A stretch of DNA of 64,000 bases from Flagellimonas aurea (GTDB taxonomy: Bacteria; Bacteroidota; Bacteroidia; Flavobacteriales; Flavobacteriaceae). Made by a program: the position numbers and the translations under genes. Position 1 is the first letter of the stretch. Each line of letters begins with the position of its first letter. This document shows, piece by piece, positions 3,556 through 30,026 of the stretch. Location: positions 186,001-250,000 of the forward strand of contig NZ_JAFLNL010000006.1 in assembly GCF_017313785.1 (NCBI RefSeq). Direction: 5' to 3'. The notes under the pieces were generated by a model. The model was given only the letters and a program-made list of their open reading frames with translations, did no database searches and was not told the origin of the DNA.

Positions 3556-3577
3556 TTAACGCAACCGATTGCGTTAA
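3556..3577. promoter_or_regulatory. LacI-family operator, susC/GH43
   Basis: Perfect 9-bp arms TTAACGCAA and TTGCGTTAA flank a CCGA centre. This is the most symmetrical copy of the motif repeated before the other catabolic operons of the locus. It lies in the divergent region between the GH43 gene and susC and overlaps the predicted -33 element of susC, so binding would block transcription. The LacI regulator at 28748-29797 is the obvious candidate ligand-responsive binder. Confidence 0.85.
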
Positions 3578-3598
3578 ACGATATATTGTGTATATTTA
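3569..3598 (+). promoter_or_regulatory. Predicted susC promoter
   Basis: TTG at 3569-3571, inside the operator, is followed after 19 bp by TATATTTA (3591-3598). This is one mismatch from the Bacteroidota -7 consensus TAnnTTTG at the usual spacing. The start codon is 75 bp further on. Confidence 0.55.
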
Positions 3599-3673
3599 AC
3601 ACATTCAAAATTACAGGTATGTTTTTTTGCCGTATCTGGATTAATTAACTAAACAAAATCAAAACTTAGTAAC

Positions 3674-6600
3674 ATGACTGAAAAATCATTATTTGTTTTT
3701 ACAAACAGTAAATGGTCCTCGCCTTTGCATTTGTATCTAACAAGCTTTTTGTTATTTATTTTTTGTACTACTGCACTAGCACAGGACATTATCTCGGTAT
3801 CTGGAACAGTGACCGATGAATCGGGTGCACCTATTCCCGGGGTAAGTGTACTTGTACAGAACACAACAAATGGAACATCGACAGACTTTGACGGGAACTA
3901 TGTGCTCGAGGCGGCTTCCAATGCCACCCTTGAGTTTCGCTATCTTGGATTTGTTACGCAAACGATTGAGGTTAATGGAAGGTCAACGATTAACGTTCAA
4001 TTAGCTGAAGACACCCAGCAACTATCAGAAGTTGTGGTAATTGGGTATGGTACCCAAAGTAAAGAGTCCGTAACTGGTTCGGTAGTGTCCATTAAAGCCG
4101 AGGAATTGAACGAAGTACAATCCGCCAACTTCACTCAAGCCCTTGTAGGACGGGCCGCAGGTGTAAATATTTCTTCCACCAGTACACGGCCGGGAGCTGC
4201 ACCACAGATTCAAATTCGTGGCGTACGCTCACTTACAGCATCAAATGATCCACTTATTGTTTTAAATGGGATCCCTTTTTCTGGGGGACTCAGCGACATC
4301 AACCAAAACGACATTGAGAGCTTGGATATCTTAAAGGATGCCTCGGCCACCGCAATTTATGGATCTAGGGGAGCCAACGGGGTAATCCTTATTACAACAA
4401 AGTCAGGTAAAAAGGGACAAAAAGCACAATTCTCTTACAATACTTATTATGGTACCAAGGAAGTGTTTGCCAAGTTACCAGTAATGAATACGGCCCAACT
4501 ATTGGAATTACGTGAGATTGCCGCTGCCAATGGCACCGGAACGCCTACAGGAAATGATGAAAGTGTTGATAATGATACGGATTGGCAAGATTTATTGTTT
4601 GGTTCATCCATGCAAACCTCCCACGATATCACTGTACAAGGAGGTACTGAAAATGGCACCTACAATGTAGGTTTGGGCTATTTTAAAGAGACCTCTCCTG
4701 TTCCCGGCGATTCTTTTCAAAGGTATTCCCTACGTTTTTCACTGGACCAACAAGTGGGTAAATTATTTCGTTACGGGGTAAACTCGGTAATGAACTATAG
4801 TGTTACCAAAAGTATAGTCGGTCCAGCCGGGGTGTATACCGCATCTCCTCTTTTAAGTCCTTATGATGAAAATGGAAACTTTTTGGAATCTGTTAGACTT
4901 ACGGATGGACAAGACCAAGTATTCATCCCTACTCGAAATGAGATCAACCGAATTGGTAAACGAAGAGCAAACGAACAATTGGACTTCGGTACCTATAACA
5001 ACGTTTACGCTGAACTTAAAATGCCCTTTATTGCTGAAGGCCTTAAGTACCGCCTTAACGTTGGTCTTAACCTAAGATCGAGCAGAGATGGCGATTTTAC
5101 TGGTCAGGGTGTCTTTAGTTTTAATCCTGACCAACCTAATTCGGCCAGTTACGGAACTAGTCTTACGCGGGACTATGTAGTTGAGAACCAATTGATTTTC
5201 GACAGGACCTTTGCCGATAAGCATAAAGTGAACTTCGTCGGGCTTTTTTCGGCTCAAGGAAATGATTTTGATAGTTCTTTTATACGGGTCCAAAATATAC
5301 CCGATGAAAACGATTTATGGTATAATACGGATTCAGCTCTATTGGAAGATGTATTGGATTATGATACCAGTTATACAGAATGGGGGCTGTTATCTTTAAT
5401 GGGAAGGGTGTTGTATGAATATGACAACCGTTACCTGCTTACCGCTACCATACGATCAGACGGTTCCTCACGATTGGCGCCAGGGAACAAGTGGTATACC
5501 TATCCTGCGGTATCCGTAGGGTGGAACATTGCCAATGAAGCTTTTATGGACAATTTGGATGCCATTAATCAATTAAAATTAAGAGCGGGCTATGGAGAAA
5601 CCTCCAACCAGGCCATTGATCCTTTTTCAGTTCAAGGACGACTAAATGGTGGGGGTACCAACCCTGCGTATAATTTTGGCGATGTTTTTGCAAATGGTTA
5701 TGTGGTGACCCAATTGCCCAACTCAAACTTAAAATGGGAGTTTTCGAAAACCTATAATTACGGTATTGATTTTGGCCTTTTCAATAATCGCCTTTCTGGA
5801 ACGGTCGAGTATTATGAAACCGAGACTAACAATATTCTGCTTAACCTCGGTCTACCAAGCACTTCTGGTGTAAGCAACGTAACCAGTAATGTAGGTAAAA
5901 CAAAGAGCAATGGGGTGGAGATAGCACTGAATGCTACTCCAATCCAAACTTCGGATTTTACTTGGGATGTAGGTGTTAACCTCTATACCAACAGGACCGA
6001 GATTGTCGAATTGGCATCCGGTCAACAAGAAGATGTAGGTAACCTTTGGTTTGTAGGCCAACCTCTTAGCGTTATCTATGATTATGAACGATTGGGATTG
6101 TGGAATGCCGATGATGAAGGTGCCGAATATCTTGAACAATTTGTACCTGGGGGTAATCTAGGAATGATACGGGTTCGATATACTGGAGAGTATAATCCAG
6201 ATGGTTCACCTGTTCGTCAAATTAATGCTGATGACAGGGTAGTTATAGACCCAACTCCTAATTTCCGAGGAGGGTTCAATACTCGCTTTGCCTATAAGAA
6301 TTTTGATCTTAGTATGGTGGGAGCATTTCAAAGTGGAGGTATATTAGTAAGTACCCTACACAATACTAATGGTAACACCATGAGGCTAAATGGTCGGGGA
6401 AACAACCTTAATGTAGACTACTGGACCCCAACCAACACCGATGCCAAATATCCGGCACCAGGGGGCATAGGCGGGGACCGTCCAGAATATGGTAGCACCT
6501 TGGGATATTTTGATGGTTCTTACCTAAAGGTACGAGCCATGACCTTGGGCTATAGATTTGACCCAGATGTGATCAAGGCAATGGGAGCCAAAAATTTATA

Positions 6601-6820
6601 CATATACGGTACAGTACAAAACCCATTTGTACTATTCTCCGATTTCCACGATGAATCGGGATTAGATCCAGAAATCACAAATTCGGGTGTGGACAACAAC
6701 GGAGTTAGGCAAAATGCAGACATAAATACCAATGGAACTGTTTCCGGTAATATCCCGACCATTGGTACCAACGTACCATCTACGCGAAATTATTTATTTG
6801 GATTAAATATAACTTTCTAA
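3674..6820 (+). CDS. SusC-like TonB-dependent transporter (xylan locus)
   Basis: A 1048-residue outer-membrane barrel that, with its SusD partner, imports oligosaccharides using TonB energy. The order is a signal peptide ending near Ala-Gln 37 (CTTALAQ), a carboxypeptidase-regulatory-like beta-sandwich (about 43-115, SGTVTDESGAPIPGVSV), a TonB-box and plug (from SEVVVIGYGTQ), then the barrel ending in the aromatic terminus NYLFGLNITF. There is no N-terminal STN domain, so signalling through an ECF/FecR pair is not expected. That agrees with control by the LacI operator upstream. susD begins 4 bp after the stop. Context with GH10, GH115 and GH67 suggests decorated xylo-oligosaccharides as cargo; the cargo is inferred. 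Confidence 0.95.
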   Translation: MTEKSLFVFTNSKWSSPLHLYLTSFLLFIFCTTALAQDIISVSGTVTDESGAPIPGVSVLVQNTTNGTSTDFDGNYVLEAASNATLEFRYLGFVTQTIEVNGRSTINVQLAEDTQQLSEVVVIGYGTQSKESVTGSVVSIKAEELNEVQSANFTQALVGRAAGVNISSTSTRPGAAPQIQIRGVRSLTASNDPLIVLNGIPFSGGLSDINQNDIESLDILKDASATAIYGSRGANGVILITTKSGKKGQKAQFSYNTYYGTKEVFAKLPVMNTAQLLELREIAAANGTGTPTGNDESVDNDTDWQDLLFGSSMQTSHDITVQGGTENGTYNVGLGYFKETSPVPGDSFQRYSLRFSLDQQVGKLFRYGVNSVMNYSVTKSIVGPAGVYTASPLLSPYDENGNFLESVRLTDGQDQVFIPTRNEINRIGKRRANEQLDFGTYNNVYAELKMPFIAEGLKYRLNVGLNLRSSRDGDFTGQGVFSFNPDQPNSASYGTSLTRDYVVENQLIFDRTFADKHKVNFVGLFSAQGNDFDSSFIRVQNIPDENDLWYNTDSALLEDVLDYDTSYTEWGLLSLMGRVLYEYDNRYLLTATIRSDGSSRLAPGNKWYTYPAVSVGWNIANEAFMDNLDAINQLKLRAGYGETSNQAIDPFSVQGRLNGGGTNPAYNFGDVFANGYVVTQLPNSNLKWEFSKTYNYGIDFGLFNNRLSGTVEYYETETNNILLNLGLPSTSGVSNVTSNVGKTKSNGVEIALNATPIQTSDFTWDVGVNLYTNRTEIVELASGQQEDVGNLWFVGQPLSVIYDYERLGLWNADDEGAEYLEQFVPGGNLGMIRVRYTGEYNPDGSPVRQINADDRVVIDPTPNFRGGFNTRFAYKNFDLSMVGAFQSGGILVSTLHNTNGNTMRLNGRGNNLNVDYWTPTNTDAKYPAPGGIGGDRPEYGSTLGYFDGSYLKVRAMTLGYRFDPDVIKAMGAKNLYIYGTVQNPFVLFSDFHDESGLDPEITNSGVDNNGVRQNADINTNGTVSGNIPTIGTNVPSTRNYLFGLNITF

Positions 6821-6824
6821 AAAA

Positions 6825-8768
6825 ATGACTGTGAAAATTAATTTTAAAGCTAAAGTGATTACGGTTCTTTCTATTGTCTTTTTGCTGAGTGCATGTACAA
6901 AAGAAATTATAGAAGAGAACCCAAGAGGACAATTTACCCCTGATTTTTTCCAGTCCGAGACTGGTGTTCAGGGCGGTGTGGTGTTCTTATATGAAACCAT
7001 GAGGGATATTTATGGGAACCCCGGATTCTTTAACTCCACGGAATCAGGTACGGATGAATATACCTTTGCAGAGTCTGCAACCGGTGATTTTAAGAACGTG
7101 GACTTATCCGGAGAAGGACAGATCATATCAGATGAAGGTGCAACTGCTGGGGTATGGTTTTCGAGTTTCCCTGCTATCAATACAGCCAATGGTATTTTGG
7201 AAAATGCAGAGGCCGTAGGATTAGACCCTGCCCTTGTTGCCGAAGTAAGGTTTTTTAGAGCATTTTATTACTTTTTATTGGTACAGACCTATGGTGGTGT
7301 GCCATTGGATCTAGGATCTGGGGAATTGGCATTCAATAGATCTGCTGTCAGAACCTCAACACGTAATACAGTTCCGGAAGTATATACAAAGGCAATTTTT
7401 CCTGATTTGGTTACAGCTGTCAACGATTTGCCTGAAAATCCAAGATTGACAGGTACAGTTACCAAAAATGTGGCCAGGCTCATTTTGGCCAAGGCGTATT
7501 TGACCTATGGTTGGTGGTTGGAAAATCCAGAAGGGATTCCAACATATCCTGAAGCTCAAAGAAACGATCCCGATGGAAATGATCCTTCATTTTATTTTCA
7601 AGGGGCATACGATTTGGCCATGGATGGTATACAAAATCCTGGTCCCTACGGTTTGCTGGAGTATTTTTATGATGTTCACGAAGGCTCTAACGATCGACAT
7701 ATGGAGATGATGTTGTATGCCGACCGTACTCCGGAAAACGAACAATTCAATGGTGCGCCGGTAACAGGCTGGGGGACTACTTCCAACAGTTCCAACACAG
7801 CAGTTTGGATGGCAACATCCAATTATACCACCATAAGTGTTGATGGTGTTCCTGCCGTTCAACGGCAATCGGTTCAGAGCCTTGGTAGACCATGGACACG
7901 AATGGCGCCTACAGTTAGCAGTTTAACCGAGACTTTTACCGATAAGGATATAGATTCCCGTTACGACGGTACTTTTACGACCAGTTATCGAGGCAATTGG
8001 GACCAAGGAGGCAATGATACACCATCATTGACCGGTGCCAATGGTCTAGAAATTTTTCCAGGCGATGCCGTCATCTCATTTTTGGACGAGTATAATCCGG
8101 CCGTGGTATATGAAGAGAGTGGAGAGCCCATAAACGGTGCCAATATTGGTGGCGGGGTATTACCAGGAAGAGCAGATTACGTAATCAATCTGAACGAATT
8201 CAATAGAAGATTTTATCCCGGTTTATGGAAGACAGGAACCTACCGTGACGATAATGCTGGAGGCCTGGGCCAGCCCAATGTGCCAAATACGCGCCCTTAT
8301 CCAATAGCTAAGTTTTCAGAGTTCTATTTTATTGCTGCCGAAGCTCGAGTAAAAGGTGCATCTGGAGCAATGAGTGCCAGGGATTTGATAAATGTGATCC
8401 GTGCCCGTGCAGGCAAATGGCGTTTTGATAATGGTGAACAAGAAGAGCGCATTGAAGACAATAGTGCAGCCATGATGGCAGCTACTCCAATGACCATTGA
8501 TATTGATTATATCTTGGATGAGCGTTCTCGTGAGTATTTTGGTGAAAGTGTGAGATGGTATGATCTAGTACGTACCCAGAAATGGATTGAAGTTGCTGGT
8601 TCATTCAAAATAGTAGATGACATCACTGCCACAGTTCATAGTCCTACTGCCACAATTTCCCGGGAAATCCAGCCTTATCATTACTTAAGGCCCATACCGC
8701 AAGGTCAAATAGACAATTTGGATATGACCGATGCTGAAAAAGCCACCTATCAAAACCCCGGATATTAA
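6825..8768 (+). CDS. SusD-like surface glycan-binding lipoprotein (xylan locus)
   Basis: A 647-residue lipoprotein (lipobox LLSAC near residue 24) of the RagB/SusD family that caps the SusC barrel and captures glycan at the cell surface. N-terminal TPR-like helices (AEVRFFRAFYYFLLVQTYGGVPL is the family signature, near 140-160) and the C-terminal SusD region (RDLINVIRARAG, then LDERSREYFGESVRWYDLVRT) are complete. It lies 4 bp after susC and must be co-transcribed. A terminator follows at 8828-8858. It is somewhat longer than typical SusD proteins, with an extended loop region at about 330-450. The ligand is inferred from neighbours as xylan. Confidence 0.94.
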   Translation: MTVKINFKAKVITVLSIVFLLSACTKEIIEENPRGQFTPDFFQSETGVQGGVVFLYETMRDIYGNPGFFNSTESGTDEYTFAESATGDFKNVDLSGEGQIISDEGATAGVWFSSFPAINTANGILENAEAVGLDPALVAEVRFFRAFYYFLLVQTYGGVPLDLGSGELAFNRSAVRTSTRNTVPEVYTKAIFPDLVTAVNDLPENPRLTGTVTKNVARLILAKAYLTYGWWLENPEGIPTYPEAQRNDPDGNDPSFYFQGAYDLAMDGIQNPGPYGLLEYFYDVHEGSNDRHMEMMLYADRTPENEQFNGAPVTGWGTTSNSSNTAVWMATSNYTTISVDGVPAVQRQSVQSLGRPWTRMAPTVSSLTETFTDKDIDSRYDGTFTTSYRGNWDQGGNDTPSLTGANGLEIFPGDAVISFLDEYNPAVVYEESGEPINGANIGGGVLPGRADYVINLNEFNRRFYPGLWKTGTYRDDNAGGLGQPNVPNTRPYPIAKFSEFYFIAAEARVKGASGAMSARDLINVIRARAGKWRFDNGEQEERIEDNSAAMMAATPMTIDIDYILDERSREYFGESVRWYDLVRTQKWIEVAGSFKIVDDITATVHSPTATISREIQPYHYLRPIPQGQIDNLDMTDAEKATYQNPGY

Positions 8769-8827
8769 GAATTAAACTATAATCTTCATAAATAGTTTGA
8801 GTTAGTTAGTTTTAAGTTGCATTCATA

Positions 8828-8858
8828 AAGAGGCTGTCCCCATTGGACGGCCTCTTTT
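8828..8858 (+). terminator. Terminator after susCD
   Basis: AAGAGGCTGTCC (8828-8839) pairs with GGACGGCCTCTT, with one G-T wobble, and ends in TTTT. It closes the susCD unit, so the carbamoyltransferase cassette downstream probably has its own promoter. Confidence 0.8.
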
Positions 8859-8935
8859 AAATGGTAATGGTAACAAAAAACAGGGGTAGATCATGAGTTC
8901 AACCTCTTCCAATTGAAATGAATACCTTTATTTAA

Positions 8936-10735
8936 ATGAAAGTACTTGGGATATCCGCATATTATCACGACTCGGCCGCAGCTCTAATTGTGGATGGCGA
9001 AGTAAGGTATGCTGCCCAAGAAGAACGTTTTTCAAGAATAAAAAATGATGCATCCTTTCCTGAAGAAGCCATAACCTATTGTCTATCTGAATCCGGATTT
9101 GCACTCGAGGATTTAGATTACATCGCCTTTTACGACAAACCATTCCTAAAGTTTGAGCGACTTTTGGAAACGTATTATGCCTTTGCGCCCAAAGGATTCC
9201 GATCATTTGCCATGGCCATGGCCATTTGGTTGAAGGAGAAACTTTTTACAAAACAAATCATTCGGAAAAGTCTAAAAAAAATAGGAGGGTCACATGCCCG
9301 AAAAATTCCCATTGTATTTCCGGAGCATCATCTGTCCCATGCGGCCAGTACCTTTTATACCTCTCCTTTCGCCAAAAGTGCATTTTTGACCATTGATGGG
9401 GTTGGTGAATGGACCACAACCTCCTATGGTTTGGCTTTAGGCAACAAAGGAATCGAAGTACTTGGGGAACTACATTTTCCCGATTCAATAGGCTTGCTGT
9501 ATTCATCCTTCACTTATTTTTTAGGGTTCAAGGTGAATTCAGGGGAATACAAAATGATGGGACTTGCCCCTTACAGGAGTCATCAATCCAAAAAAGTACA
9601 GGGTTTCATCGACATCATCAAAGAAAAATTAGTGGACATCAAGGAAGATGGTTCCATCAAACTGAACAAAGCGTATTTTGAATATCCCGTTGGGCTTCGG
9701 ATGGTGAATCCAAAAAAGTGGGAATCACTTTTCGGATTCAAGAAACGGGGAGCCAATGAGCCCATGACGCAAATACATGCAGATTTGGCCTTCGCAGCCC
9801 AAAAGGTTTTGGAAGAGATTATCGTGAAGCTGGCCCATCATATTAAAAAGGAAACCGATGCGGACTATTTGTGTTTGGCCGGGGGTGTTGCCCTCAATTG
9901 TGTGGCCAATTCTGTTTTATATAATGAGGGGATTTTTGAAGATATTTATGTGCAGCCTGCAGCAGGTGATGCTGGAGGAGCCATCGGGGCTGCCTTGGCC
10001 GCGGCGTATTTAAAGCAGGATTTGAACTTTACGGGACTCAAGAAACCGTTCAATCCTTATCTAGGCCCCTGTACATCCCATCAAAAAATTGAGAGACTGT
10101 TGCGAAGGCACAAATGCCCATATCATTATTTTGAATCCACTGAGGAACTTTTAGGCGCAGTAGCGGATCATTTGGCTGAAAAAAAAGTAGTCGGGTGGTT
10201 CAGGGGACGGACAGAATTTGGTCCAAGGGCATTGGGAAATCGGAGCATCCTCGCCGACCCTTCAGATCCAGAAATGCAATCCAAGCTTAATATGAAAATT
10301 AAGTTCAGGGAAAGTTTTAGACCCTTTGCCCCAGCAGTTTGTGAAGAAGATTATGACTCCTATTTTGAGCCCGGCAAACAATCAAATTATATGTTGTTCA
10401 CAAATCCTGTGAAGGCATCCATCAGAAAAGCATTGCCTAAAAATTTTCACGAGCTTAGTCTAGAGGGAAAACGCAAAATACCAAAATCCGATTTGCCAGC
10501 CATTACCCACGTAGACTATTCGGCAAGGGTACAAGTAGTAAAACAAGGAGTCAATCCCACATTTTGGGGTCTATTGCAGACCTTTAAAAAATTGACAGGT
10601 ACCGGAGTGCTCATCAACACCAGTTTCAATGTTAAGGATGAACCCATTGTAAACACACCCGAAGATGCCTACCATTGTTTTATAAACTCAGGCATGGATG
10701 TTCTGGTTTTGGAAAATTATCTAATTGTTAAGTAA
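8936..10735 (+). CDS. NodU/CmcH-family carbamoyltransferase
   Basis: A 599-residue O-carbamoyltransferase with both expected parts. The N-terminal Kae1-like domain starts MKVLGISAYYHDSAAAL and carries the metal-binding HHLSHA signature near 127-133. The C-terminal YrdC-like domain contains GRTEFGPRALGNRSI. Family members use carbamoyl phosphate and ATP to carbamoylate a sugar hydroxyl or a natural-product scaffold; the acceptor here is unknown. It overlaps nothing, follows the susCD terminator, and is followed immediately by DUF5989 and SxtJ-like genes. That set is a recurrent cassette in diverse bacteria. No LacI-type operator is upstream, so it may be independent of the xylan regulon even though it sits inside it. 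Confidence 0.92.
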   Translation: MKVLGISAYYHDSAAALIVDGEVRYAAQEERFSRIKNDASFPEEAITYCLSESGFALEDLDYIAFYDKPFLKFERLLETYYAFAPKGFRSFAMAMAIWLKEKLFTKQIIRKSLKKIGGSHARKIPIVFPEHHLSHAASTFYTSPFAKSAFLTIDGVGEWTTTSYGLALGNKGIEVLGELHFPDSIGLLYSSFTYFLGFKVNSGEYKMMGLAPYRSHQSKKVQGFIDIIKEKLVDIKEDGSIKLNKAYFEYPVGLRMVNPKKWESLFGFKKRGANEPMTQIHADLAFAAQKVLEEIIVKLAHHIKKETDADYLCLAGGVALNCVANSVLYNEGIFEDIYVQPAAGDAGGAIGAALAAAYLKQDLNFTGLKKPFNPYLGPCTSHQKIERLLRRHKCPYHYFESTEELLGAVADHLAEKKVVGWFRGRTEFGPRALGNRSILADPSDPEMQSKLNMKIKFRESFRPFAPAVCEEDYDSYFEPGKQSNYMLFTNPVKASIRKALPKNFHELSLEGKRKIPKSDLPAITHVDYSARVQVVKQGVNPTFWGLLQTFKKLTGTGVLINTSFNVKDEPIVNTPEDAYHCFINSGMDVLVLENYLIVK

Positions 10736-13009: not shown

Positions 13010-13031
13010 TTAACGCAATCGATTGCATTTT
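13010..13031. promoter_or_regulatory. LacI-family operator, GH10 operon/SGNH
   Basis: The core AACGCAATCGATTGCATT is centred between 13020 and 13021. It differs from the best palindrome in one arm base and has the TCGA centre. It covers the -33 region of the predicted GH10 promoter and lies in the divergent region shared with the SGNH hydrolase gene. Confidence 0.85.
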
Positions 13032-20466: not shown

Positions 20467-21207
20467 TTAAAAACCTATACTATTACCTCCATCAACGGGA
20501 AGTACCGTTCCAGTAACAAATTTGGCCTCCTTGGAACACATAAAGAACACGGCATCGGCAATATCCTCTGGAAGTCCCATTTTGCCCATCGGTGTTCTTG
20601 AGAACACTTTCTCCTTTCTTGGAGGGTCTGAATCCAGTGCTTTAGCGGTCATTTTGGTCTTGATAAAGCCCGGAGCGATGCAATTTGTCCTAATATTATA
20701 TTGGGCCAAGTCTACGGCCATTGCTCGTGTCATACCTTCTATGGCGGTTTTACTGGCGGAATAGGCAACTACCTTGGGCATACCGTACTGGGCTGCCATG
20801 GAACTAATGTTCACAATGCTTCCGCCACCTGTTTCCTTCATTTTTTTGACCACCTCCCTACTAATGGAAAAAACGCTAAAAAGGTTGGTGTGCAGGATGT
20901 TTTCAAATTCGGCATCCGTGACTTCGATAAACTCTTTCTTCATATTGATACCTGCATTGTTGACCAGAATATCAATCTGCCCTTCCTTATCAAAAATATC
21001 TTGGATCATTCCGGGGATTTTGTCCAAATTCGTCAGATCAAAAATCAATGGTACGGCATTGTCCCCTATTTCCGCACAAGCATTGACCGTGCGTTCCTTG
21101 GTTCGCCCAATAACATAGGTTTTGATACCGTTATCGCAGAATTTCTTTGCTGTTGCATATCCCAATCCAGAGTTTCCCCCGGTTACTATGGCTATTTTTT
21201 TATCCAT
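20467..21207 (-). CDS. SDR oxidoreductase, probable fructuronate reductase
   Basis: A 246-residue classical short-chain dehydrogenase. It has TGGNSGLG (about 9-16) for cofactor binding, NNAG at about 87-90, the catalytic Ser in NISSMAAQYG and YSASK near 155-159. The typical long-chain UxuB mannonate oxidoreductase is missing from the locus. This gene lies between GH67 and uxuA, so reduction of D-fructuronate to D-mannonate by an SDR-type enzyme is the economical reading. Such non-orthologous replacement of UxuB is known in other bacteria. Generic annotation would be gluconate 5-dehydrogenase or 3-oxoacyl-ACP reductase-like; the assignment rests on context. Confidence 0.8.
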   Translation of the reverse strand: MDKKIAIVTGGNSGLGYATAKKFCDNGIKTYVIGRTKERTVNACAEIGDNAVPLIFDLTNLDKIPGMIQDIFDKEGQIDILVNNAGINMKKEFIEVTDAEFENILHTNLFSVFSISREVVKKMKETGGGSIVNISSMAAQYGMPKVVAYSASKTAIEGMTRAMAVDLAQYNIRTNCIAPGFIKTKMTAKALDSDPPRKEKVFSRTPMGKMGLPEDIADAVFFMCSKEAKFVTGTVLPVDGGNSIGF

Positions 21208-21228: not shown

Positions 21229-23424
21229 TTAATCCCATTGCGGCCGAATACCTGGCGCATAAGGGAACTTTAAAGACTGATAATGTTGCAATGTATTTTC
21301 CGGGGATTCCATTTCCTTTGGAAAATCCATTTTTGAGAATGTCTGAAAATAGAGCATACAAGCATCTCGCCACCATTTGGCCTCTTTGAGCTGTATGCCC
21401 AATAACATACTCACTTGATTGTGTCTATATTCATCCACGTAGGGTTCCATGTTTTCCCATGTATTGATCATTTGCTTTACTTGGTCCACCCCTTGCTGGT
21501 ATTTGATTCCCAAACCGTCCCAGAGTGTTCTTCCGCTCTTAAGCTGGTAATCCCACGGTAAATGATGAAACCATAGGAGGTATTCCTCTGGACAGGTTTT
21601 CGGATTTCCAAATTTTTCCTCGAATTCTGGTGCGTATTGTGATAGTGCATTACTCCCTGTTTTGGTCCTATCAAAACCGATTCCGTCTTCATCCGCTTTA
21701 TGATAGTATACAGGGTTCCATTCTGGACGGGATAGATTGCCTACCCAAGGTCCGGGACCATAATGATGGCTTGTATCAAATAAATGATGTAATCCGAGTG
21801 GGTTCATATAGTTTACAACGGCCTCTCTTGACTCCAGCATCATTTTCTTTACGGGCTTTATAAACTTTTCGTTGTTGCCAAAGGTACATCGCAACCATTC
21901 GTCAGCAATTGCTTCGGATTCCATGGAGGGGTCCCATGCCAATCGACCAAAGCCATACCAATCTGCTTGGCCGAATGGGTGTCCGGTCCAGTTGGCATCT
22001 GTTCCTATATTGGAAACCCCTGCCATTCCCGTCAACTTTTTATTATACAGGGAACCATCCACCACTTTGGCCACCGTGGACCCTTTCCCTTTTTGATAGG
22101 TATCGCTCTTTAGTACCTCTTCAAATAACTTGGGGAGATAGACCAAATGTGTGGCAAAGCCCAAATATTCCTTGGTTATCTGAAACTCCATCATAAGTGG
22201 GGTATTTGGCATGGCACCGAACATAGGATGGAACGGTTCTCTTGGCTGAAAATCAATGGGTCCATTCTTTACCTGGATAAGAACATTGTCCGGATACTTC
22301 CCATCATCGGGAACAAATTCACTGTATGCTTGTTTTGCCCTGTCATCGGCATCGTGTTCGGAATAAACAAATGCACGCCAAATTACGGTTCCATTGTGTG
22401 GGGCAAGGGCGTTGGCCAGTACCTTTGCGCCATCCAAGTGGGTTCGTCCATAATTTTGCGGGCCGGGCTGTCCTTCTGAGTTTGCCTTCACCAAAAAACC
22501 TCCAAAATCAGGAATGCTCTTATAAATTTCCGTCGTCTTTTCCTTCCACCATTGGATTACCTTCGGGTCCAAAGGGTCTGCTGTTTCCAAGCCTCCTATT
22601 TCCAAGGGTGCGGAAAACCGGGCGGTGAGATACACTTTTAGGCCATATGGGCGGAACACATCGGCAAGAGCCTTCACCTTTTCCAAATATTGAGGTGTTA
22701 AAATAAGCGCATTCGCGTTCACATTGGTCAATGCTGTACCATTGATTCCGATTGATGCGTTCGCCCTGGCGTAGTCTATATAGCGCTGATCTATATAATC
22801 GGGAAGTGTTTGCCAATTCCAGATGGAGAATCCGGAGTATCCTCTTTCAATGGTTCTGTCCAAATTGTCCCAGTGATTCAACATACGGATATCAACTTTT
22901 GGGGATTCTTCCGCGTCCATTGCATCCAGTGATTGATGCATTTTTAAAGCACGTAAAAAATGAAAAGTTCCATAGAGCAATCCAATTTCTTCCTTACCTG
23001 TAATAATTAAATAGTCCTTTCCACTTTTTTCGATATGCTTTATAATATAGCCTTCACTATTAAGGTTATCAATATTGATGTCTTCTTTAAAGTCCTTCGG
23101 CAAACTACCATATTTGGAAACAACCAATTGATTCCCTGAAGATGGAAGGGATTCGAACCGAATTTCCAAATCCAATAGGCCTCCCAAACCCATTTCCAAC
23201 TCCTTCCTAATGGCTTGCATTGTCGCGCCACCTTCTTCCACAAAGACGCTTTGAAGCTGGTTTTGATACGTTTTTAAGACAGTATCATCTGATATTTTAT
23301 CGTAATTTAACCATAGCTCATATCCATTGGACAAGGCGAACGACATACTGCACAGCAGTACAAAAAAGCTGAAAAAAAATGTTTTTTTAAGTCTAAAGGG
23401 ATGTTTCATCATTTGGAAATTCAC
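21229..23424 (-). CDS. aguA: GH67 alpha-glucuronidase
   Basis: A 731-residue GH67 enzyme that removes (4-O-methyl)glucuronic acid from the non-reducing terminal xylose of aldouronic acids. An N-terminal signal peptide (about 12-33, FFFSFFVLLCSMSFALS) with no lipobox implies a periplasmic enzyme. The three usual regions are visible: the small N-terminal alpha/beta domain, the (beta/alpha)8 barrel starting at WDNLDRTIERGYSGFSIW, and the helical C-terminal domain with LLWFHHLPWDY. It lies first in a leftward operon with the SDR and uxuA, and its upstream region holds the operator shared with uxaC plus a second weak site. It works after GH10 and GH115 have made short decorated oligosaccharides. 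Confidence 0.96.
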   Translation of the reverse strand: MNFQMMKHPFRLKKTFFFSFFVLLCSMSFALSNGYELWLNYDKISDDTVLKTYQNQLQSVFVEEGGATMQAIRKELEMGLGGLLDLEIRFESLPSSGNQLVVSKYGSLPKDFKEDINIDNLNSEGYIIKHIEKSGKDYLIITGKEEIGLLYGTFHFLRALKMHQSLDAMDAEESPKVDIRMLNHWDNLDRTIERGYSGFSIWNWQTLPDYIDQRYIDYARANASIGINGTALTNVNANALILTPQYLEKVKALADVFRPYGLKVYLTARFSAPLEIGGLETADPLDPKVIQWWKEKTTEIYKSIPDFGGFLVKANSEGQPGPQNYGRTHLDGAKVLANALAPHNGTVIWRAFVYSEHDADDRAKQAYSEFVPDDGKYPDNVLIQVKNGPIDFQPREPFHPMFGAMPNTPLMMEFQITKEYLGFATHLVYLPKLFEEVLKSDTYQKGKGSTVAKVVDGSLYNKKLTGMAGVSNIGTDANWTGHPFGQADWYGFGRLAWDPSMESEAIADEWLRCTFGNNEKFIKPVKKMMLESREAVVNYMNPLGLHHLFDTSHHYGPGPWVGNLSRPEWNPVYYHKADEDGIGFDRTKTGSNALSQYAPEFEEKFGNPKTCPEEYLLWFHHLPWDYQLKSGRTLWDGLGIKYQQGVDQVKQMINTWENMEPYVDEYRHNQVSMLLGIQLKEAKWWRDACMLYFQTFSKMDFPKEMESPENTLQHYQSLKFPYAPGIRPQWD

Positions 23425-23502: not shown

Positions 23503-23524
23503 TTAACGCAATCGATTGCAAAAA
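23503..23524. promoter_or_regulatory. LacI-family operator, GH67/uxaC
   Basis: TTAACGCAATCGATTGCA with the TCGA centre at 23513/23514 carries a perfect left arm; the right arm decays to A's. It lies in the divergent region between GH67 (leftward) and the small ORF-uxaC operon (rightward) and overlaps the predicted rightward -33 element. Confidence 0.85.
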
Positions 23525-23545: not shown

Positions 23546-23584
23546 GAATCTATTTAAAGAAAAAATAATCTAAATAAATAAGTA

Positions 23585-23875: not shown

Positions 23876-23897
23876 ACCCTTCCTTAGAAACCAACAC

Positions 23898-25328
23898 ATG
23901 AAAAAATTTATACACGATGACTTTTTGCTGGAAACTGATTACGCTAAGGAGCTATATCACAATTATGCAGAGAGTCAGCCTATCATCGATTTTCATTGTC
24001 ATCTTCCGGTCAACGAAATCGCGGATAATAAGAACTTTGCCAATATGACCCGGATTTGGATTGAAGGCGATCATTATAAGTGGAGGGCTATGCGAGCCTT
24101 GGGCATAGAGGAAAAGTACATTACAGGCGACGCTACAGATGAGGAAAAGTTCCTTAAATGGGCAGAAACCGTACCCTACACGTTAAGGAATCCTTTATAC
24201 CATTGGACGCATATGGAACTGAGCCGATATTTTGGAGTCGATAAAATTCTGTCTCCAAAGACTGCATCGGAAATTTATGGAATATGTAATGAAAAACTGA
24301 ACACTTCAGATTTTTCGACCCAACAGCTCCTTGAACGGATGCATGTAAAGGTGGTGTGCACCACGGATGACCCGTTGGACAATCTCTCCGATCATGCCAA
24401 ATTGGGTGATTCAGGTTTTAGCACCGAAGTTCTGCCAACGTTTAGACCGGATGGTCTCATTGATATTGAGAAAGATGATTTTCTGGATTACCTAAAGCGC
24501 CTATCCGAAATCACGGATATTGAAATCACCGATTTCGAATCCCTAAAGGAAGCCATCGGTGTTAGGGTTGATTTTTTCCATACACATGGATGTAGACTTT
24601 CAGACCATGGATTGACGCATGCTTTTGGAGAATCATTTACTCCGGACCAAATTAATGGAATACTGAGGCTTCGCTTAGATGGGAAATCAATTTCCAAAAT
24701 TGAAGTCACTAAGTACAAATCGGCGATAATGCATACGCTGGGCGAGTTTTATGCCAACAAAAATTGGGTGATGCAATTGCATTTAGGCCCCATCCGGGAC
24801 ACCAACCAAGCCGTTCTTTCCAAAATAGGAATCAATGCGGGAGTGGACAGTATTGGCGATTATCAACAAGCGGAACAATTGGCCAGCTTTTTGAACCATC
24901 TAAACAGCAATGAAAGCCTGCCCAAAACCATTTTATACAATTCCAATCCTTCGGACAATGAGGTGTTCGCCACTATGGCCGGTAATTTTACGGGAGAGGG
25001 AATCAAAAGTAAAGTACAATTCGGGGCTGCTTGGTGGTTTTTAGATCAAAAAGATGGTATCGAGGACCAATTGAATGTCCTTTCCAATATGGGCTTGCTC
25101 AGTTGCTCGGTGGGCATGCTTACGGACAGTAGAAGTTTTCTATCTTTTCCAAGGCACGAATACTATAGGAGGGTATTGTGCAATATGCTCGGCAACGACC
25201 TTAAAGCTGGATTGCTTCCGAATGACATGGAGTGGATAGGACAAATCGTAAAAGACATAACATATAACAACGCCAAAGCATTTTTTCAATTCCCGAGCGT
25301 AATGAAAAATGAAAGCGTAAAAACATAA
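23898..25328 (+). CDS. uxaC: Glucuronate isomerase
   Basis: A 476-residue UxaC that isomerises D-glucuronate to D-fructuronate (and galacturonate to tagaturonate) in the cytoplasm. The family N-terminus KFIHDDFLLETDYAKELYHNYA, the metal-binding IIDFHCHLP at about 30-38, MQLHLGPIRD and the C-terminal LTDSRSFLSFPRHEYYRR are all present at normal length. It is followed by eda (39 bp) and the TRAP genes, so uronate uptake and the first and last catabolic steps are in one transcript. Expression is probably derepressed through the operator at 23503-23524. Confidence 0.97.
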   Translation: MKKFIHDDFLLETDYAKELYHNYAESQPIIDFHCHLPVNEIADNKNFANMTRIWIEGDHYKWRAMRALGIEEKYITGDATDEEKFLKWAETVPYTLRNPLYHWTHMELSRYFGVDKILSPKTASEIYGICNEKLNTSDFSTQQLLERMHVKVVCTTDDPLDNLSDHAKLGDSGFSTEVLPTFRPDGLIDIEKDDFLDYLKRLSEITDIEITDFESLKEAIGVRVDFFHTHGCRLSDHGLTHAFGESFTPDQINGILRLRLDGKSISKIEVTKYKSAIMHTLGEFYANKNWVMQLHLGPIRDTNQAVLSKIGINAGVDSIGDYQQAEQLASFLNHLNSNESLPKTILYNSNPSDNEVFATMAGNFTGEGIKSKVQFGAAWWFLDQKDGIEDQLNVLSNMGLLSCSVGMLTDSRSFLSFPRHEYYRRVLCNMLGNDLKAGLLPNDMEWIGQIVKDITYNNAKAFFQFPSVMKNESVKT

Positions 25329-25367
25329 AGGGACTCACAACCCCTGAACTAAACAAACATATCGCAC

Positions 25368-26039
25368 ATGAAAAAATACACCCGTCTCGAGGTTTTTAAA
25401 GCTATGGGGGACACTGGGTTTGTTCCCTTGTTCTACAATTCCGACCCCAAAATGGTACAGCAAGTAGTAAAAGCCTGCTATAATGGGGGCGCTAGACTTT
25501 TTGAATTTACCCATAGAGGGGAAAACGCCGAAAAGGTATTTTCTGAACTAGTTGATTTCTGCAATAAAGAATGTCCCGATATGATATTGGGCGTTGGCTC
25601 TGTTACTGATGCCGCTACTGCTTCCAACTTTATTAATATGGGTGCTTCTTTCGTGGTTACTCCTGTGCTACGGGAGGACATTGCCATTGTGTGCAACCGT
25701 AAAAAGATTTTTTGGTCTCCCGGATGCGGTACGCTTACCGAAATTACAAGGGCCGAGGAACTTGGCTGTGAAGTGGTAAAATTATTTCCTGCGGAAGTGT
25801 ACGGTCCCCAATTTATCAAGGCCGTTAAGGGACCTCAACCGTGGACCAACATAATGCCTACTGGCGGGGTGGACACTACCCAAGAAAACCTGACCGCTTG
25901 GTTTGAAGCTGGCGCCACCTGTGTGGGGATGGGCTCCAAACTCATAGACAAACAAGCTCTGGTTCAAGGAAACTTTGATTTGATCACCCAAAAGGTAAAA
26001 GACGTTATAAAGATCATCCAAGAGATAAAATCAGTATGA
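25368..26039 (+). CDS. eda: KDPG/4-hydroxy-2-oxoglutarate aldolase
   Basis: A 223-residue class I aldolase that splits 2-keto-3-deoxy-6-phosphogluconate into pyruvate and glyceraldehyde 3-phosphate. The Schiff-base lysine is Lys138 in EVVKLFPAEVYGPQF; Glu46 in RLFEFTHRG, TPVL (about 98-101) and PTGGV complete the active site. The Thr-Pro-rich loop SPGCGTLTEI is typical of the bacterial Eda fold. The stop overlaps the dctP start (ATGA at 26036-26039), so the two are translationally coupled. It completes the hexuronate route with KdgK. Confidence 0.95.
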   Translation: MKKYTRLEVFKAMGDTGFVPLFYNSDPKMVQQVVKACYNGGARLFEFTHRGENAEKVFSELVDFCNKECPDMILGVGSVTDAATASNFINMGASFVVTPVLREDIAIVCNRKKIFWSPGCGTLTEITRAEELGCEVVKLFPAEVYGPQFIKAVKGPQPWTNIMPTGGVDTTQENLTAWFEAGATCVGMGSKLIDKQALVQGNFDLITQKVKDVIKIIQEIKSV

Positions 26040-27010
26040 AAACCTGGTTTTTCATCCTTTTCGCCATACTTCTCTTGAGCTGTAAGCCAGATGAGGAAAA
26101 TGTAAATTCCATAAAACTGGCACATAGTCTTGGTGTAAGCCATCCTGTGCACGAAGCCATGGTATACATGGCAGATCTAATTGCGGAAAAATCAAAGGGG
26201 AAACTCAAAATTGAAATTTATCCCAGTAGCCAATTGGGTTCCGAGAAACAGTCCTTGGAACTGCTCCAAATAGGTAGTTTGGGCATGACCAAGGTATCGG
26301 CAGCGGTAATGGAAAATTTTTCGCCCGACCTTAAGGTATTGGGGTACCCCTACATATTTAAAGATGATGCGCATCGTTTCAAAATATATGATGGTGAAAT
26401 CGGGAAAAAGCTTCTTTCCGGTTCGGAACAGTTTTGGCTAAAGGGTTTGACCTACTTTGACGCCGGAAATCGTTCATTCTACACAAAGGATACCCCCATT
26501 GATAGTCCAAAAGACTTGGAGGGTCTTAAATTACGGGTAATGCAGAGTCCCACGGCCATAGAAATGGTGAAGGATTTCGGTGGGTCCCCTACTCCCATTT
26601 CTTGGGCGGAACTATACACTTCACTTCAACAAGGCGTGGTGGATGGTGCAGAAAACAACCTTCCCAGTTTTTATACCTCGAAACATTATGAGGTCTGTAA
26701 GTATTTTTCCAAAAACGAACATACCTCAATCCCTGATATTTTAGTCATTGGCACATTGACGTGGAACAAGCTGAGCGAACAGGAAAAAGGATGGTTAATG
26801 GAAGCTGTGGAAGAAGCTACTGTTTTACAGCGAAAATTATGGGAAGACGCGGAACGTGAAGCCTTGACGGAAATTAAAAAAGCGGGCGTTCAGATTATAT
26901 ACCCAGATAAATCACTTTTCGAAGAAAAAGCAAAACCCATGCTCCAATCCCTGAAAGAAAAAAATGGACATTTGTACAAACTCGTTCAAGAAATTAAGAG
27001 CACCGAATAA
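26036..27010 (+). CDS. dctP: TRAP transporter solute-binding lipoprotein
   Basis: A 324-residue DctP-family periplasmic binding protein whose leader ends in a lipobox (LLLSC, Cys16), so it is membrane-tethered rather than free. Family features are LAHSLGVSHPVHE at the N-terminus, the carboxylate-clamping Arg167 in LKLRVMQSP and SLQQGVVDGAENN. TRAP systems import organic acids with Na+. Genes on both sides are for glucuronate breakdown, so D-glucuronate or a related uronate is the probable ligand. It overlaps eda upstream and dctQ downstream. Confidence 0.93.
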   Translation: MKTWFFILFAILLLSCKPDEENVNSIKLAHSLGVSHPVHEAMVYMADLIAEKSKGKLKIEIYPSSQLGSEKQSLELLQIGSLGMTKVSAAVMENFSPDLKVLGYPYIFKDDAHRFKIYDGEIGKKLLSGSEQFWLKGLTYFDAGNRSFYTKDTPIDSPKDLEGLKLRVMQSPTAIEMVKDFGGSPTPISWAELYTSLQQGVVDGAENNLPSFYTSKHYEVCKYFSKNEHTSIPDILVIGTLTWNKLSEQEKGWLMEAVEEATVLQRKLWEDAEREALTEIKKAGVQIIYPDKSLFEEKAKPMLQSLKEKNGHLYKLVQEIKSTE

Positions 27011-27486
27011 TGAAAAACCATGTGAACAGCTTTTTGGAATGGGCCATGGCATTTTTGTTGGGAGTTATGGTGCTGGATGTGTTTTGGGGGGTAATTACAC
27101 GATATCTATTGGAAAGTCAGAGCTCTTGGACAGATGAACTTGCCCGTTTTTTACTGGTATGGCTCAGTATTTTGGGCGCGGCCTACGCTTCAGGCAAAAA
27201 GTTGCATATTGCCATTGACTTACTGCCACAACACCTTAACCAAAAGCAACAAAACTACTTGGATATTGTTATCCATCTACTTGTATTGTTATTTGCTGTG
27301 GCCGTTTTTTTGATCGGTGGTATTAGGTACGTCTATATTTCGTTTGCACTGGGCCAAACATCTCCTGCCCTGCAATTGCCCATTGGATTTGTTTATATGG
27401 TGCTGCCCATATCCGGAGCTTTTATCCTCTATTTCAAATTATCAGAGCTTTTCACCATCATAAAAAAAATCAAAAATGGAAATTAG
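27010..27486 (+). CDS. dctQ: TRAP transporter small permease
   Basis: A 158-residue four-helix inner-membrane subunit of the TRAP transporter, with the family motif SSWTDELARFLLVWLSILGAAYASGKKLHIAIDLL in its second and third segments. Its ATG shares one base with the dctP stop (TAATG) and its end overlaps dctM by 11 bp, so the three subunits are made as a set. Confidence 0.93.
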   Translation: MKNHVNSFLEWAMAFLLGVMVLDVFWGVITRYLLESQSSWTDELARFLLVWLSILGAAYASGKKLHIAIDLLPQHLNQKQQNYLDIVIHLLVLLFAVAVFLIGGIRYVYISFALGQTSPALQLPIGFVYMVLPISGAFILYFKLSELFTIIKKIKNGN

Positions 27487-28762
27487 CATTCTTATCCTTA
27501 GTTTTCTCATTTTGATTTCGATTCGTGTTCCTGTGGCCTGGGCTTTAGGGATATCATCCTTACTTACTTTAATGGTAAGTGTAGATACTTTCCCTGCAGT
27601 TACTACCATTGCACAGAGACTTGTAACCGGATTGGACAGTTTTTCTATCTTGGCGATACCATTCTTTATTTTGGCCGGTCATATTATGAACAAGGGGGGC
27701 ATTGCCGAACGTTTGATTGCTTTCGCCAAAAGTTTGGTGGGTGCGTTACCCGGCGGGTTGGCCCACGTGAACATTGTTGCGGCCATGTTATTCGGTGCCA
27801 TTGCAGGGTCTGCCGGAGCCGCCGCAGCGGCCATTGGAGGTTTTATGTCGGAAAAAATGGAAGAATCCGGGTATGATAAAGGTTTTGGAGTGGCTGTTAA
27901 CGTAACATCCGCCACGACCGGACTGGTAATTCCACCCAGTAATATTTTTATCATTTATTCCGTAGCCAGTGGTGGGGTGAGTATTGGCGCCCTATTTTTA
28001 GCAGGATATCTTCCCGGTATTATCACAGGAATATTCCTAATGATAGTTGCTTATATCTGGGCCAGAAAAAAAGGATATCCCACCGCGGACCGTAGTTCAT
28101 TTAAAATGATACTTAGCACTTTTTTAGATGCATTGCCCAGTCTCTTCCTATTGATAGTGGTTATAGGAGGTATTGTGGCAGGAATATTCACCGCGACCGA
28201 AGCATCTTCAGTAGCAGTAATCTATTGTTTGGTACTGGCAATGATCTACAAGGAAATTTCTATCAAGGACATTCGCCCTATTTTAGTGGAGTCCTCCTCT
28301 ACCATTGCCATAGTCATGTTACTGATTGCGGTTTCCATTGCGATGTCGTGGGTGCTTTCGTATGAAAATATCCCACAAGCGGTCACTCAAGCACTCTTGA
28401 GTTTGAGCGACAACAAGATTATGGTCATCATCTTGATCAATATAATTCTTCTTATCGTAGGAATTTTTATGGACATGACCCCTGCTGTATTGATATTCAC
28501 TCCCATATTTTTGCCCGTGGTGATGGAACTTGGTATAGACCCTGTCCATTTTGGAATTATAATGGTGCTGAACCTTTGCATTGGCCTATGTACACCGCCT
28601 GTTGGGGCCGTATTGTTCATAGGGGTCGGGGTGGCCAAGACAACGATTCAAAAAGTAGTACGTCCACTGTTACCCTTATTTTTAGCAATGATTCTGGCCT
28701 TGGTTTTTGTAAGTATTTTTCCTGAACTTAGCCTTTGGCTGCCTAGCTTATTCGGACTCTAA
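27476..28762 (+). CDS. dctM: TRAP transporter large permease
   Basis: A 428-residue DctM subunit with 11-12 transmembrane helices that carries the Na+/substrate path. It has the AIAGSAGAAAAAIGGFM loop, the SATTGLVIPPSNIFIIYSV motif of the first helical hairpin and the FMDMTPAVLIFTPIFLPV motif of the second. With dctP and dctQ it forms a complete TRAP system for the uronate released by the alpha-glucuronidases. Its last 15 bp overlap the 3' end of the convergent lacI-family gene, leaving no space for a terminator between them. Confidence 0.94.
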   Translation: MEISILILSFLILISIRVPVAWALGISSLLTLMVSVDTFPAVTTIAQRLVTGLDSFSILAIPFFILAGHIMNKGGIAERLIAFAKSLVGALPGGLAHVNIVAAMLFGAIAGSAGAAAAAIGGFMSEKMEESGYDKGFGVAVNVTSATTGLVIPPSNIFIIYSVASGGVSIGALFLAGYLPGIITGIFLMIVAYIWARKKGYPTADRSSFKMILSTFLDALPSLFLLIVVIGGIVAGIFTATEASSVAVIYCLVLAMIYKEISIKDIRPILVESSSTIAIVMLLIAVSIAMSWVLSYENIPQAVTQALLSLSDNKIMVIILINIILLIVGIFMDMTPAVLIFTPIFLPVVMELGIDPVHFGIIMVLNLCIGLCTPPVGAVLFIGVGVAKTTIQKVVRPLLPLFLAMILALVFVSIFPELSLWLPSLFGL

Positions 28763-29797
28763 AACTTTGGTTCTCTTTAAAGAGGAATCCCTGGCAATGA
28801 TCTCTGTCCCGAGTACAGTGACTTCAGAAACTCCTGTATCGTAAGTGTTGATGGAATGATCTAAGATTCTTTTTGCCGAAATTGCTCCCATTTTGCTTGC
28901 AGGGTGGGATACGGTAGACAGCGATGGTTGCACAATGGATGCAATGGGGTCATCATTAAACCCGATTACCGCCAATTGTTCGGGCACTTCAACTCCCATT
29001 TTCTTGGCACACATAATGGCACTCACCGCAGCGGTATCGTTGGCGGAAAAAATGCCATCCGGTGGATTGGCCGACTTCAGGAGTTTTTTGGTGGCTTTGT
29101 TGCCCTCCTCAAAACTCAGGGTCTTAAAATTAACCATTAGGTTATCCTCTATGGGCAGACCATGCTCTCGAAGGGCATCCAGATACCCCTTTTTACGTTC
29201 CCGGTATACATTTCTATGCTGCGCTCCTGCAAAATGTGCAATTCGTTTACAACCTTGCTCTATCAAATGCTTGGTTGCGGAATAACCTGCAGTATAGTTA
29301 TCGATGACGACTTTGTAGGAATTGAAATTATCCGGTACCCTATCCACAAAGACAATTGGTATGCCCTTGTCCACAAACTTTTGGAAATGTTCCATTTCCA
29401 CAGTTTCCATGGAAAGCGAAACAATCAACCCGGTTATTCTGCTATCGTAAAGTGTATTGCAATTGCTTATTTCATTCTCATACTTATCATTGGATTGACT
29501 GATAAGTACATTGTATCCGGCCTTCCGGGCAGTCTCTTCAATTCCACTGATTAACGAGGCCATGAATGGACGGTTGATTCTGGAAATGAGGACACCGATG
29601 GTGTTGCTCTTATTATTTCTGAGTCCCGCTGCCAAGTTATTGGGGCGATACCCCATCTCTTCCGCCGCCTCTTTGATCAGCTTAATGGTCTTTTTGCTGA
29701 TACTTTTATGATTATTCAGGGCTCTCGAAATCGTCGAGGGGGAATAGTTCAATTCTTTGGCAAGATCGTAGATGGTAACCTCCTTTTTGATCTTCAT
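28748..29797 (-). CDS. LacI/GalR-family transcriptional regulator
   Basis: A 349-residue one-component regulator. The N-terminal HTH (about 7-30, TIYDLAKELNYSPSTISRALN) is followed by the hinge helix RPNNLAAGLRNNKSNTIG and a periplasmic-binding-like sensor domain with NDDPIASIVQPSLSTVSHP near the C-terminus. LacI proteins bind CG-centred palindromes. Five copies of a motif with core CAATCGATTG lie in the same locus, four of them over promoters, so this is almost certainly their regulator. The effector is probably a uronate-pathway intermediate or xylo-oligosaccharide; that is inference. It is transcribed away from the SSS transporter; the shared 438 bp region carries one of the operators. Confidence 0.94.
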   Translation of the reverse strand: MKIKKEVTIYDLAKELNYSPSTISRALNNHKSISKKTIKLIKEAAEEMGYRPNNLAAGLRNNKSNTIGVLISRINRPFMASLISGIEETARKAGYNVLISQSNDKYENEISNCNTLYDSRITGLIVSLSMETVEMEHFQKFVDKGIPIVFVDRVPDNFNSYKVVIDNYTAGYSATKHLIEQGCKRIAHFAGAQHRNVYRERKKGYLDALREHGLPIEDNLMVNFKTLSFEEGNKATKKLLKSANPPDGIFSANDTAAVSAIMCAKKMGVEVPEQLAVIGFNDDPIASIVQPSLSTVSHPASKMGAISAKRILDHSINTYDTGVSEVTVLGTEIIARDSSLKRTKVLESE

Positions 29798-30004
29798 TGT
29801 TCAGACTTCGGTTAGGTTATTCAAGTCGCGGAATTGTAACAGACCTGAGTTTTCATGTTGCTAAATTAACTTTTAGTTTCAGTTTTGTATAATTATTTGA
29901 AATCGATTTTTAAATTTCGCGCTATTTAGGCTCATTCCGATCAAGAGCAAAAACTTTATCTCCCTAGAAATGTTTGCGTCAACACAAAGAAATTTAAAAA
30001 TTAA

Positions 30005-30026
30005 TTTACGCAATCGATTCCGTTAA
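30005..30026. promoter_or_regulatory. LacI-family operator, SSS transporter
   Basis: The core TACGCAATCGATTCCGTTA carries the TCGA centre at 30015/30016 and one mismatch in the right half-site. It lies between the predicted -33 and -7 elements of the SSS transporter promoter, the position expected for a repressor site. It is about 208 bp from the lacI start, so autoregulation is possible. Confidence 0.8.

Follow-up and report, generated by a model that had tools for sequence, protein, structure and literature searches.

Proteins of the LacI family are usually repressors, and the XylR-type LacI repressors of Xanthomonas and Caulobacter are known to act through palindromic operators over dispersed xylan and xylose genes. 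Within Bacteroidota, the LacI-family uronate regulators KdgR, UxaR, UxmR and UxuR of Bacteroides were predicted by comparative genomics to control, according to the accessible text of PMC3878776, glucuronate, galacturonate or mannuronate catabolism. Few extracellular genes belong to the regulons described in those sections, which consist for the most part of cytoplasmic enzymes and transporters of the inner membrane, and the polysaccharide utilization loci (PULs) of Bacteroides are mostly placed under hybrid two-component systems (HTCSs) or SusR-like regulators. The AraC-type HTCSs of gut Bacteroides, treated in the same sections, also control polysaccharide loci, being two-component sensors with direct-repeat sites. 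The available part of PMC10766802 presents AraR and XylR as repressors of the LacI family that act on xylanase and arabinanase genes. For Gramella flava, also a member of the Flavobacteriaceae, a legend in PMC5306329 lists lacI, xylA, xylB, xylE, susC, susD and aguA in a xylan PUL, and the available part of that paper describes no operator or regulon. The present analysis concerns a stretch of 64,000 nucleotides from Flagellimonas aurea (C26:186001-250000, hereafter the window), which carries a xylan/uronate PUL, a LacI-family gene and four palindromic sites that had been proposed as operators of a single LacI switch.

We put at roughly 0.84 the probability that these sites, together with one distant site, represent a complete local-plus-one-distant LacI repressor regulon with five predicted operators, promoter occlusion and a sugar inducer. 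This reading is based on the distribution of the sites, their co-occurrence with the regulator, their conserved positions and the promoter-box overlap computed at several of them, from which we infer that LacI binds them, that it represses rather than activates, and the nature of the inducer. The arrangement resembles the XylR-type systems in that one LacI-family repressor would serve dispersed xylan/xylose genes, whereas those systems belong to other phyla and lack susCD. Unlike the Bacteroides regulons, a single LacI protein is predicted here to govern susCD and the genes for xylanase, esterases and debranching, together with uronate catabolism and transport, and no HTCS was seen in a Pfam scan of the locus genes.

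The operators were searched for as the 18-mer AACGCAATCGATTGCGTT with up to three mismatches, in the window and in the whole genome (4.48 Mb, 29 contigs). In the window, four matches were obtained, at 3558-3575, 13012-13029, 23505-23522 and 30007-30024, with 1, 1, 3 and 2 mismatches, respectively; they are the cores of the four 22-mers of the initial annotation, whose positions thereby hold. Its description of the sites as near-identical is fair at one to three mismatches in 18, and their symmetry is unequal, with 16, 16, 12 and 14 of the 18 core positions being self-complementary. Genome-wide, five places were found (reversed-pattern control, 0), all of them in divergent intergenic regions flanked on one or both sides by a sugar-use gene, and all with a central CG. 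Equal matches in front of unrelated genes had been named as a possible refutation; the one other match lies before a sugar-acid dehydratase and a permease. The five predicted operators, to which no strand is assigned, are as follows.

3556..3577, operator 1, between the glycoside hydrolase (GH) family 43 gene and susC
13010..13031, operator 2, between the GDSL esterase and GH10 genes
23503..23524, operator 3, between GH67 and uxaC, with decay in one arm
30005..30026, operator 4, between lacI and the SSF symporter gene (predicted autoregulation)
C25:148370-148391 (core 148372-148389), operator 5, on another contig, 11 bp before the ilvD start codon

The gene units originally placed behind the four window sites were confirmed with Pfam, with the correction that all sites are divergent, so that operators 1 and 2 also face the GH43 and GDSL esterase genes.

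Short palindromes are common, and a similar one at 31972-31993 stands between convergent gene ends, so that the sites might be taken for terminators, a structural repeat or chance. This explanation is close to negligible given that 0.05 matches per window are expected from shuffles against four observed (0 of 100 shuffles reached four), that every operator palindrome precedes divergent gene starts rather than gene ends, and that position and sequence are kept in relatives. The palindrome at 31972-31993 scores 17.7 bits with a matrix built from the five own-genome sites and is kept in relatives G067 and G066; it was rejected as an operator because of the convergent gene ends and an adjoining terminator-like hairpin, and 1 of 20 letter-shuffles of the window also reaches 18 bits. 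With a degenerate 16-mer at no more than one mismatch, nine genome places were recovered (two for the reversed pattern), namely the five operators and four extras, each inside an open reading frame (ORF). The 14-mer core with exactly two mismatches occurs at four places, two inside ORFs, one inside susC and one at 46102-46115 of the window. The last belongs to a near-palindrome, AAACCGCAATTGCTTGCGGTTT (46098-46119, 12.8 bits), which stands in front of an ORF (46248-47348) for which Pfam gave no match, and could be a terminator or the site of another regulator.

The LacI protein encoded at 28748..29797 matches PF00356 (44 bits, cut-off 27), PF00532 and PF13377, and thus combines an N-terminal helix-turn-helix with a periplasmic-binding-protein-like effector domain. 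A single lacI gene had been placed in the middle of the locus; it is present, and lies towards the right end. Its nearest named relatives are from Allomuricauda chongwuensis (97%), followed by other Allomuricauda, Flagellimonas and Muricauda, as expected for a marine flavobacterium of this group. Among the 71 genomes of the genus, an ortholog (86-100% identity) was found in 16, with the recognition helix SPSTISRAL identical in all 16. The motif at up to two mismatches was present in 16/16 carriers compared with 5/55 non-carriers (Fisher 6e-12; reversed pattern, 1/71). At up to three mismatches the scan was too loose (61/71 genomes matched, with 0 to 6 hits in non-carriers), and the stricter one was used instead. 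Four of the five motif-positive non-carriers contain AACGAAATCGATTTCGTT and the fifth a single odd match. The perfect palindrome AACGAAATCGATTTCGTT occurs once each in G024, G029, G034 and G051 (L141-L144), all without the LacI of the window, and is perhaps the operator of a sister LacI.

The distribution of GH67 across the genus coincides precisely with the 16 LacI carriers, mainly an indication that the island moves as a whole; the independent part of the co-occurrence evidence is provided by the distant ilvD and GH115 sites described below. Judged from these patterns, LacI 28748..29797 is very probably the regulator acting on the operators. An alternative owner would have to be sought among the other LacI proteins of this genome, with that of the window as a bystander or co-user. 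Four LacI genes are present, and xylA lies outside the locus, adjoining one of the others (C24:12184); moreover, another LacI of the genus may use the similar palindrome AACGAAATCGATTTCGTT. Such an assignment is nevertheless quite improbable: the motif at up to two mismatches is absent from 50/55 genomes without the ortholog, 45 of the 55 holding another LacI relative (E<=1e-60); a site lies upstream of window-type lacI in 15/15 relatives; and loci of related LacI proteins with another helix (ATSTISR in 11/12) are mostly without a site, four of 12 having one.

Conservation of the positions was assessed with the five-site matrix in stretches fetched from the 15 genus relatives carrying the ortholog, of which G027 and G010 are represented by short contigs. 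The motif had been expected beside the orthologous regulator, and was indeed found upstream of both lacI and GH67 in 15/15 of these relatives, at 18-31 and 18-29 bits, respectively; in three of them the longest ORF call covers the GH67 site. A site before GH43 was observed in 11 relatives (25-31 bits), and in nine of these susC lies opposite at 96 bp, as in F. aurea; G017, G019, G015 and G027 showed no divergent GH43/susC pair within the sequence retrieved. Seven relatives have a site before GH10, scoring at least 23 bits in G067, G007, G064 and G052 and 14-17 bits in G044, G010 and G066. In four genomes, a distant second GH115 gene is preceded at ~56 bp by a site of 27.6-30.2 bits, and further sites stand beside GH2, GH30-like and CBM4_9/TIG genes in some genomes. 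Taken together, site distribution, co-occurrence and conserved positions support the single switch of the initial annotation as a strong prediction.

A possible auxiliary operator of the lac O2 type was considered inside susC (3953-3974, ~400 bp from operator 1), where at least 13 bits are kept in 8/9 relatives of the susC alignment. It was rejected, as its seven-codon window ranks only 179th lowest of 1022 for synonymous change (10 sequences) and coding constraint suffices. A second xylan-type cluster occurs near the first in G017 (L094:1-17000), with its own LacI (57% identical, helix ATSTISRGL) and weak sites only (14-21 bits); it is perhaps a duplicated locus whose regulator has diverged in specificity.

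The promoter consensus of Bacteroidota is TTG, 17-23 bases and TAnnTTTG. Pairs fitting TTG-N17-23-TAnnTTTG, with TTG and at least five of the six other positions, were found near the operators in five of ten directions, compared with 1.7 in shuffled flanks (P=0.012). For susC, GH10, uxaC and lacI, the -33-like TTG lies inside the operator; the fifth pair, that of the SSF gene, lies further out. On the SSF/xylB side, 15/16 genomes have a -7-like TATATTTG box starting one base beyond the 22-mer, without a good TTG partner. The boxes are conserved (own genome counted) in 12/12 genomes for susC, 15/16 for SSF/xylB and 5/7 for GH10.

The position of the promoter-like boxes, which coincide in part with several operators or directly adjoin them, makes occlusion by a repressor the favoured mechanism. 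In the proposed model, LacI would bind the 18-22-bp palindromes in the five divergent intergenic regions and, without inducer, block the promoters by occluding polymerase, until a product of xylan breakdown inside the cell, be it xylose, xylobiose or an intermediate derived from glucuronate, releases it. A xylan-derived cytoplasmic sugar is the likely inducer because uronate genes are the steadiest neighbours of lacI, followed by xylBA. Some LacI-family proteins activate, and the LacI of the window might own the sites and mainly activate, or be a dual regulator. A clear promoter pair is missing near the site in the other five directions, and the accessible portion of a transcriptome study (PMC7409140) interprets LacI genes close to GH clusters as activators on the basis of their joint upregulation. 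We regard this as unlikely, in view of the repressor-like placement of the TTG and TATATTTG elements and of the ilvD operator, which ends so close to the start codon. Under repression by occlusion, the predicted target units would comprise susCD and GH43 for capture of glucuronoxylan; GH10, GH115 and the esterases for attack on backbone and side chains; GH67-SDR-uxuA and uxaC-eda-dctPQM for final debranching, uronate catabolism and import; and, further, the sugar symporter, lacI itself and a distant pentonate-type dehydratase with a GntP permease. The genes of the locus, with assignments confirmed by Pfam, are listed below.

235..1818, + strand, aldehyde dehydrogenase (ALDH); best NCBIfam match 2,5-dioxovalerate dehydrogenase, far below cut-off
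2250..3398, - strand, GH43 enzyme, transcribed away from operator 1
3674..6820, + strand, SusC TonB-dependent transporter
6825..8768, + strand, SusD lipoprotein
8936..10735, + strand, NodU-type carbamoyltransferase after susD, both domains in Pfam; NCBIfam NodU far below cut-off
11257..12927, - strand, GDSL esterase, transcribed away from operator 2
13109..14224, + strand, GH10 xylanase
14240..17221, + strand, GH115 alpha-glucuronidase
17256..19214, + strand, SASA-type carbohydrate esterase
19269..20450, - strand, UxuA mannonate dehydratase
20467..21207, - strand, short-chain dehydrogenase/reductase (SDR), likely fructuronate reductase from its context
21229..23424, - strand, GH67 alpha-glucuronidase, three Pfam domains; first gene left of operator 3
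23898..25328, + strand, UxaC glucuronate isomerase, NCBIfam above cut-off
25368..26039, + strand, Eda 2-keto-3-deoxy-6-phosphogluconate aldolase, NCBIfam above cut-off
26036..28762, + strand, DctP-DctQ-DctM TRAP transporter, likely for uronate
28748..29797, - strand, LacI-family regulator of 349 aa (Pfam LacI and Peripla_BP), proposed owner of the operators
30236..31888, + strand, SSF sodium/sugar symporter
32009..33067, - strand, pfkB-family kinase, likely a 2-keto-3-deoxygluconate (KDG) kinase; aldolase/sugar-kinase fusion and KDG kinase models of NCBIfam all below cut-off

The GDSL esterase, carbamoyltransferase, pfkB kinase and ALDH are additions to the earlier gene calls. Adjoining susC and susD genes together with carbohydrate-active enzymes identify the locus as a PUL, and by family the glucuronoxylan set is complete (GH10, GH115, GH67, uxaC, SDR, uxuA, pfkB kinase and eda). 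Xylose is the likely substrate of the SSF symporter, since xylA adjoins lacI on the symporter side in 10/15 relatives; an SSF gene directly follows xylA in seven, and the pair beside lacI in G017 was checked as xylB-xylA. A gene of the fumarylacetoacetate hydrolase (FAA) fold, whose start falls outside the window, precedes the ALDH gene.

The fifth operator precedes a sugar-acid dehydratase gene of the IlvD/EDD family, followed by a GntP-family permease gene; across the operator, the facing gene encodes a serine hydrolase. The closest solved structures of the dehydratase are 8ej0 (831 bits, named only dihydroxyacid dehydratase), 5j83 (773) and 9evv (772), whereas the D-xylonate dehydratase 5oyn scores 433. 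L-arabinonate dehydratase 9evv is the closest named solved relative, and NCBIfam PRK13016 was just missed (864 versus 882). D-xylonate and L-arabinonate are the candidate substrates of this pentonate-type dehydratase. The FAA-fold gene and ALDH gene at the window edge fall into the families of the two enzymes that follow in an oxidative pentose route. The three Weimberg-type families (pentonate dehydratase, FAA-fold dehydratase and alpha-ketoglutarate semialdehyde dehydrogenase) are in the genome, split over two places.

An ilvD gene at E<=1e-150 was found in 9/71 genus genomes, eight of them LacI carriers (Fisher 1e-5); the ninth, G006, has a contig-edge fragment (74% identity) and lacks this LacI. 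In all seven relatives with both genes, a site precedes ilvD, at ~29-30 bits in three, 24.8 bits in G069 and 20.2 bits in three. The order ilvD-gntP-FAA-ALDH is contiguous in G019, L215 and L216, with FAA identities of only 27-36%, and an ALDH gene shortly follows ilvD-gntP in G045, G027, G039 and G069. At L215 and L216, which belong to two other genera, lacI and GH10 share one locus with ilvD, gntP, ALDH and a weak FAA match (27-28%). Because of this clustering, also beside lacI in other genera, ilvD-gntP is a credible member of the regulon, and the predicted regulon assigns this distant cluster, likely an oxidative pentonate route, to xylan use.

Beyond the genus, LacI at E<=1e-100 was found in 32 of 397 sampled family genomes (31/396 without F. 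aurea). All 35 matches outside the own genome were scanned over ~20 kb around each (two stretches shorter). Sites of at least 18 bits were detected in 22/23 loci with a LacI of 60% identity or more and in 4/12 of lower identity, with one hit in total among letter-shuffled controls (one per locus). L217, which has a site, stands at 59% in the locus scan and 60% in the family search, and regrouping it gives 23/24 and 3/11. Besides the ATSTISR helix of the lower group, the other group shows SPS and in some cases STS, SAS, SSS or APS; loss of the motif thus appears to accompany a change of the recognition helix, imperfectly. GH67, uxuA, SDR, uxaC, TRAP and xylBA genes recur around lacI in other genera.

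These frequencies show that the initial annotation overstated its case in calling LacI control unusual for a Bacteroidota polysaccharide locus: the relatives lie beside xylan/uronate genes in many Flavobacteriaceae, and the lacI gene of the G. flava PUL (PMC5306329) and the LacI uronate regulators of Bacteroides (PMC3878776), as far as the accessible text of both goes, weaken the claim further. For the family as a whole, the balance tips slightly towards a cytoplasmic LacI repressor, not an HTCS or ECF/FecR pair, governing glucuronoxylan use as a single master switch at all stages, outer-membrane capture as well as the catabolism of uronate and pentose/pentonate, with targets (xylBA, second GH115, ilvD-gntP) entering and leaving the locus while keeping or acquiring the same operator. 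If true, one operator code would be traceable through the remodelling of a PUL regulon. The operator code found here could be applied to the 18 other genera in which a LacI of 60% identity or more was detected.

Several observations weigh against the regulon proposed for F. aurea. The co-occurrence is largely non-independent because LacI, GH67 and most sites are linked in a single island, and the scoring matrix derives from five own sites and was applied to close relatives. The 14-mer core with exactly three mismatches adds 110 further genome places, giving 119 in all compared with 25 for the reversed pattern. Half of the directions are without a good promoter pair, as stated above, and the sites of 20.2 bits before ilvD (G045, G027 and G039) are weak. 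One locus of another genus, L207, has a LacI of 67% identity and no site in its 19.9-kb stretch. No operator was found before the pfkB kinase start or the FAA-ALDH pair, so that the regulon is imperfectly closed over both pathways.

LacI control of uronate use (Bacteroides) and xylan use (XylR) is already known, as is the presence of lacI in a xylan PUL of a flavobacterium. The analysis adds as new elements the operator map, the genome-wide closure at five strong places and the distant pentonate module, and the reach is unusually wide. Operators of a LacI xylan regulon in Flavobacteriaceae are not described in the accessible text of PMC3878776, PMC12125979, PMC5306329, PMC10766802 and PMC7409140, and in the literature searched, mostly non-subscription and available in part, the operator set, its five-place closure and the susCD-to-pentonate reach were not found. 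The best-known PUL regulators of Bacteroidota sense glycans at the envelope; the predicted regulon would link outer-membrane capture to cytoplasmic uronate and pentonate breakdown, making PUL regulation in marine flavobacteria directly testable.

Beside the xylan locus, at 36056-45850, lies another susCD pair, accompanied by two genes for alkaline phosphatase and by an ECF sigma/FecR pair, an envelope-sensing type of control adjoining the LacI regulon. The NodU-type carbamoyltransferase gene adjoins the GDSL esterase gene in G067, G017, G045, G007, G064, G052 and L202 of another genus. Finally, seven-codon windows beginning at codons 1-8 of susC (window 3674-3715) showed synonymous change of 0.03-0.15, compared with 0.43 gene-wide (10 orthologs), hinting at a regulatory or translation-start element or a misplaced start.

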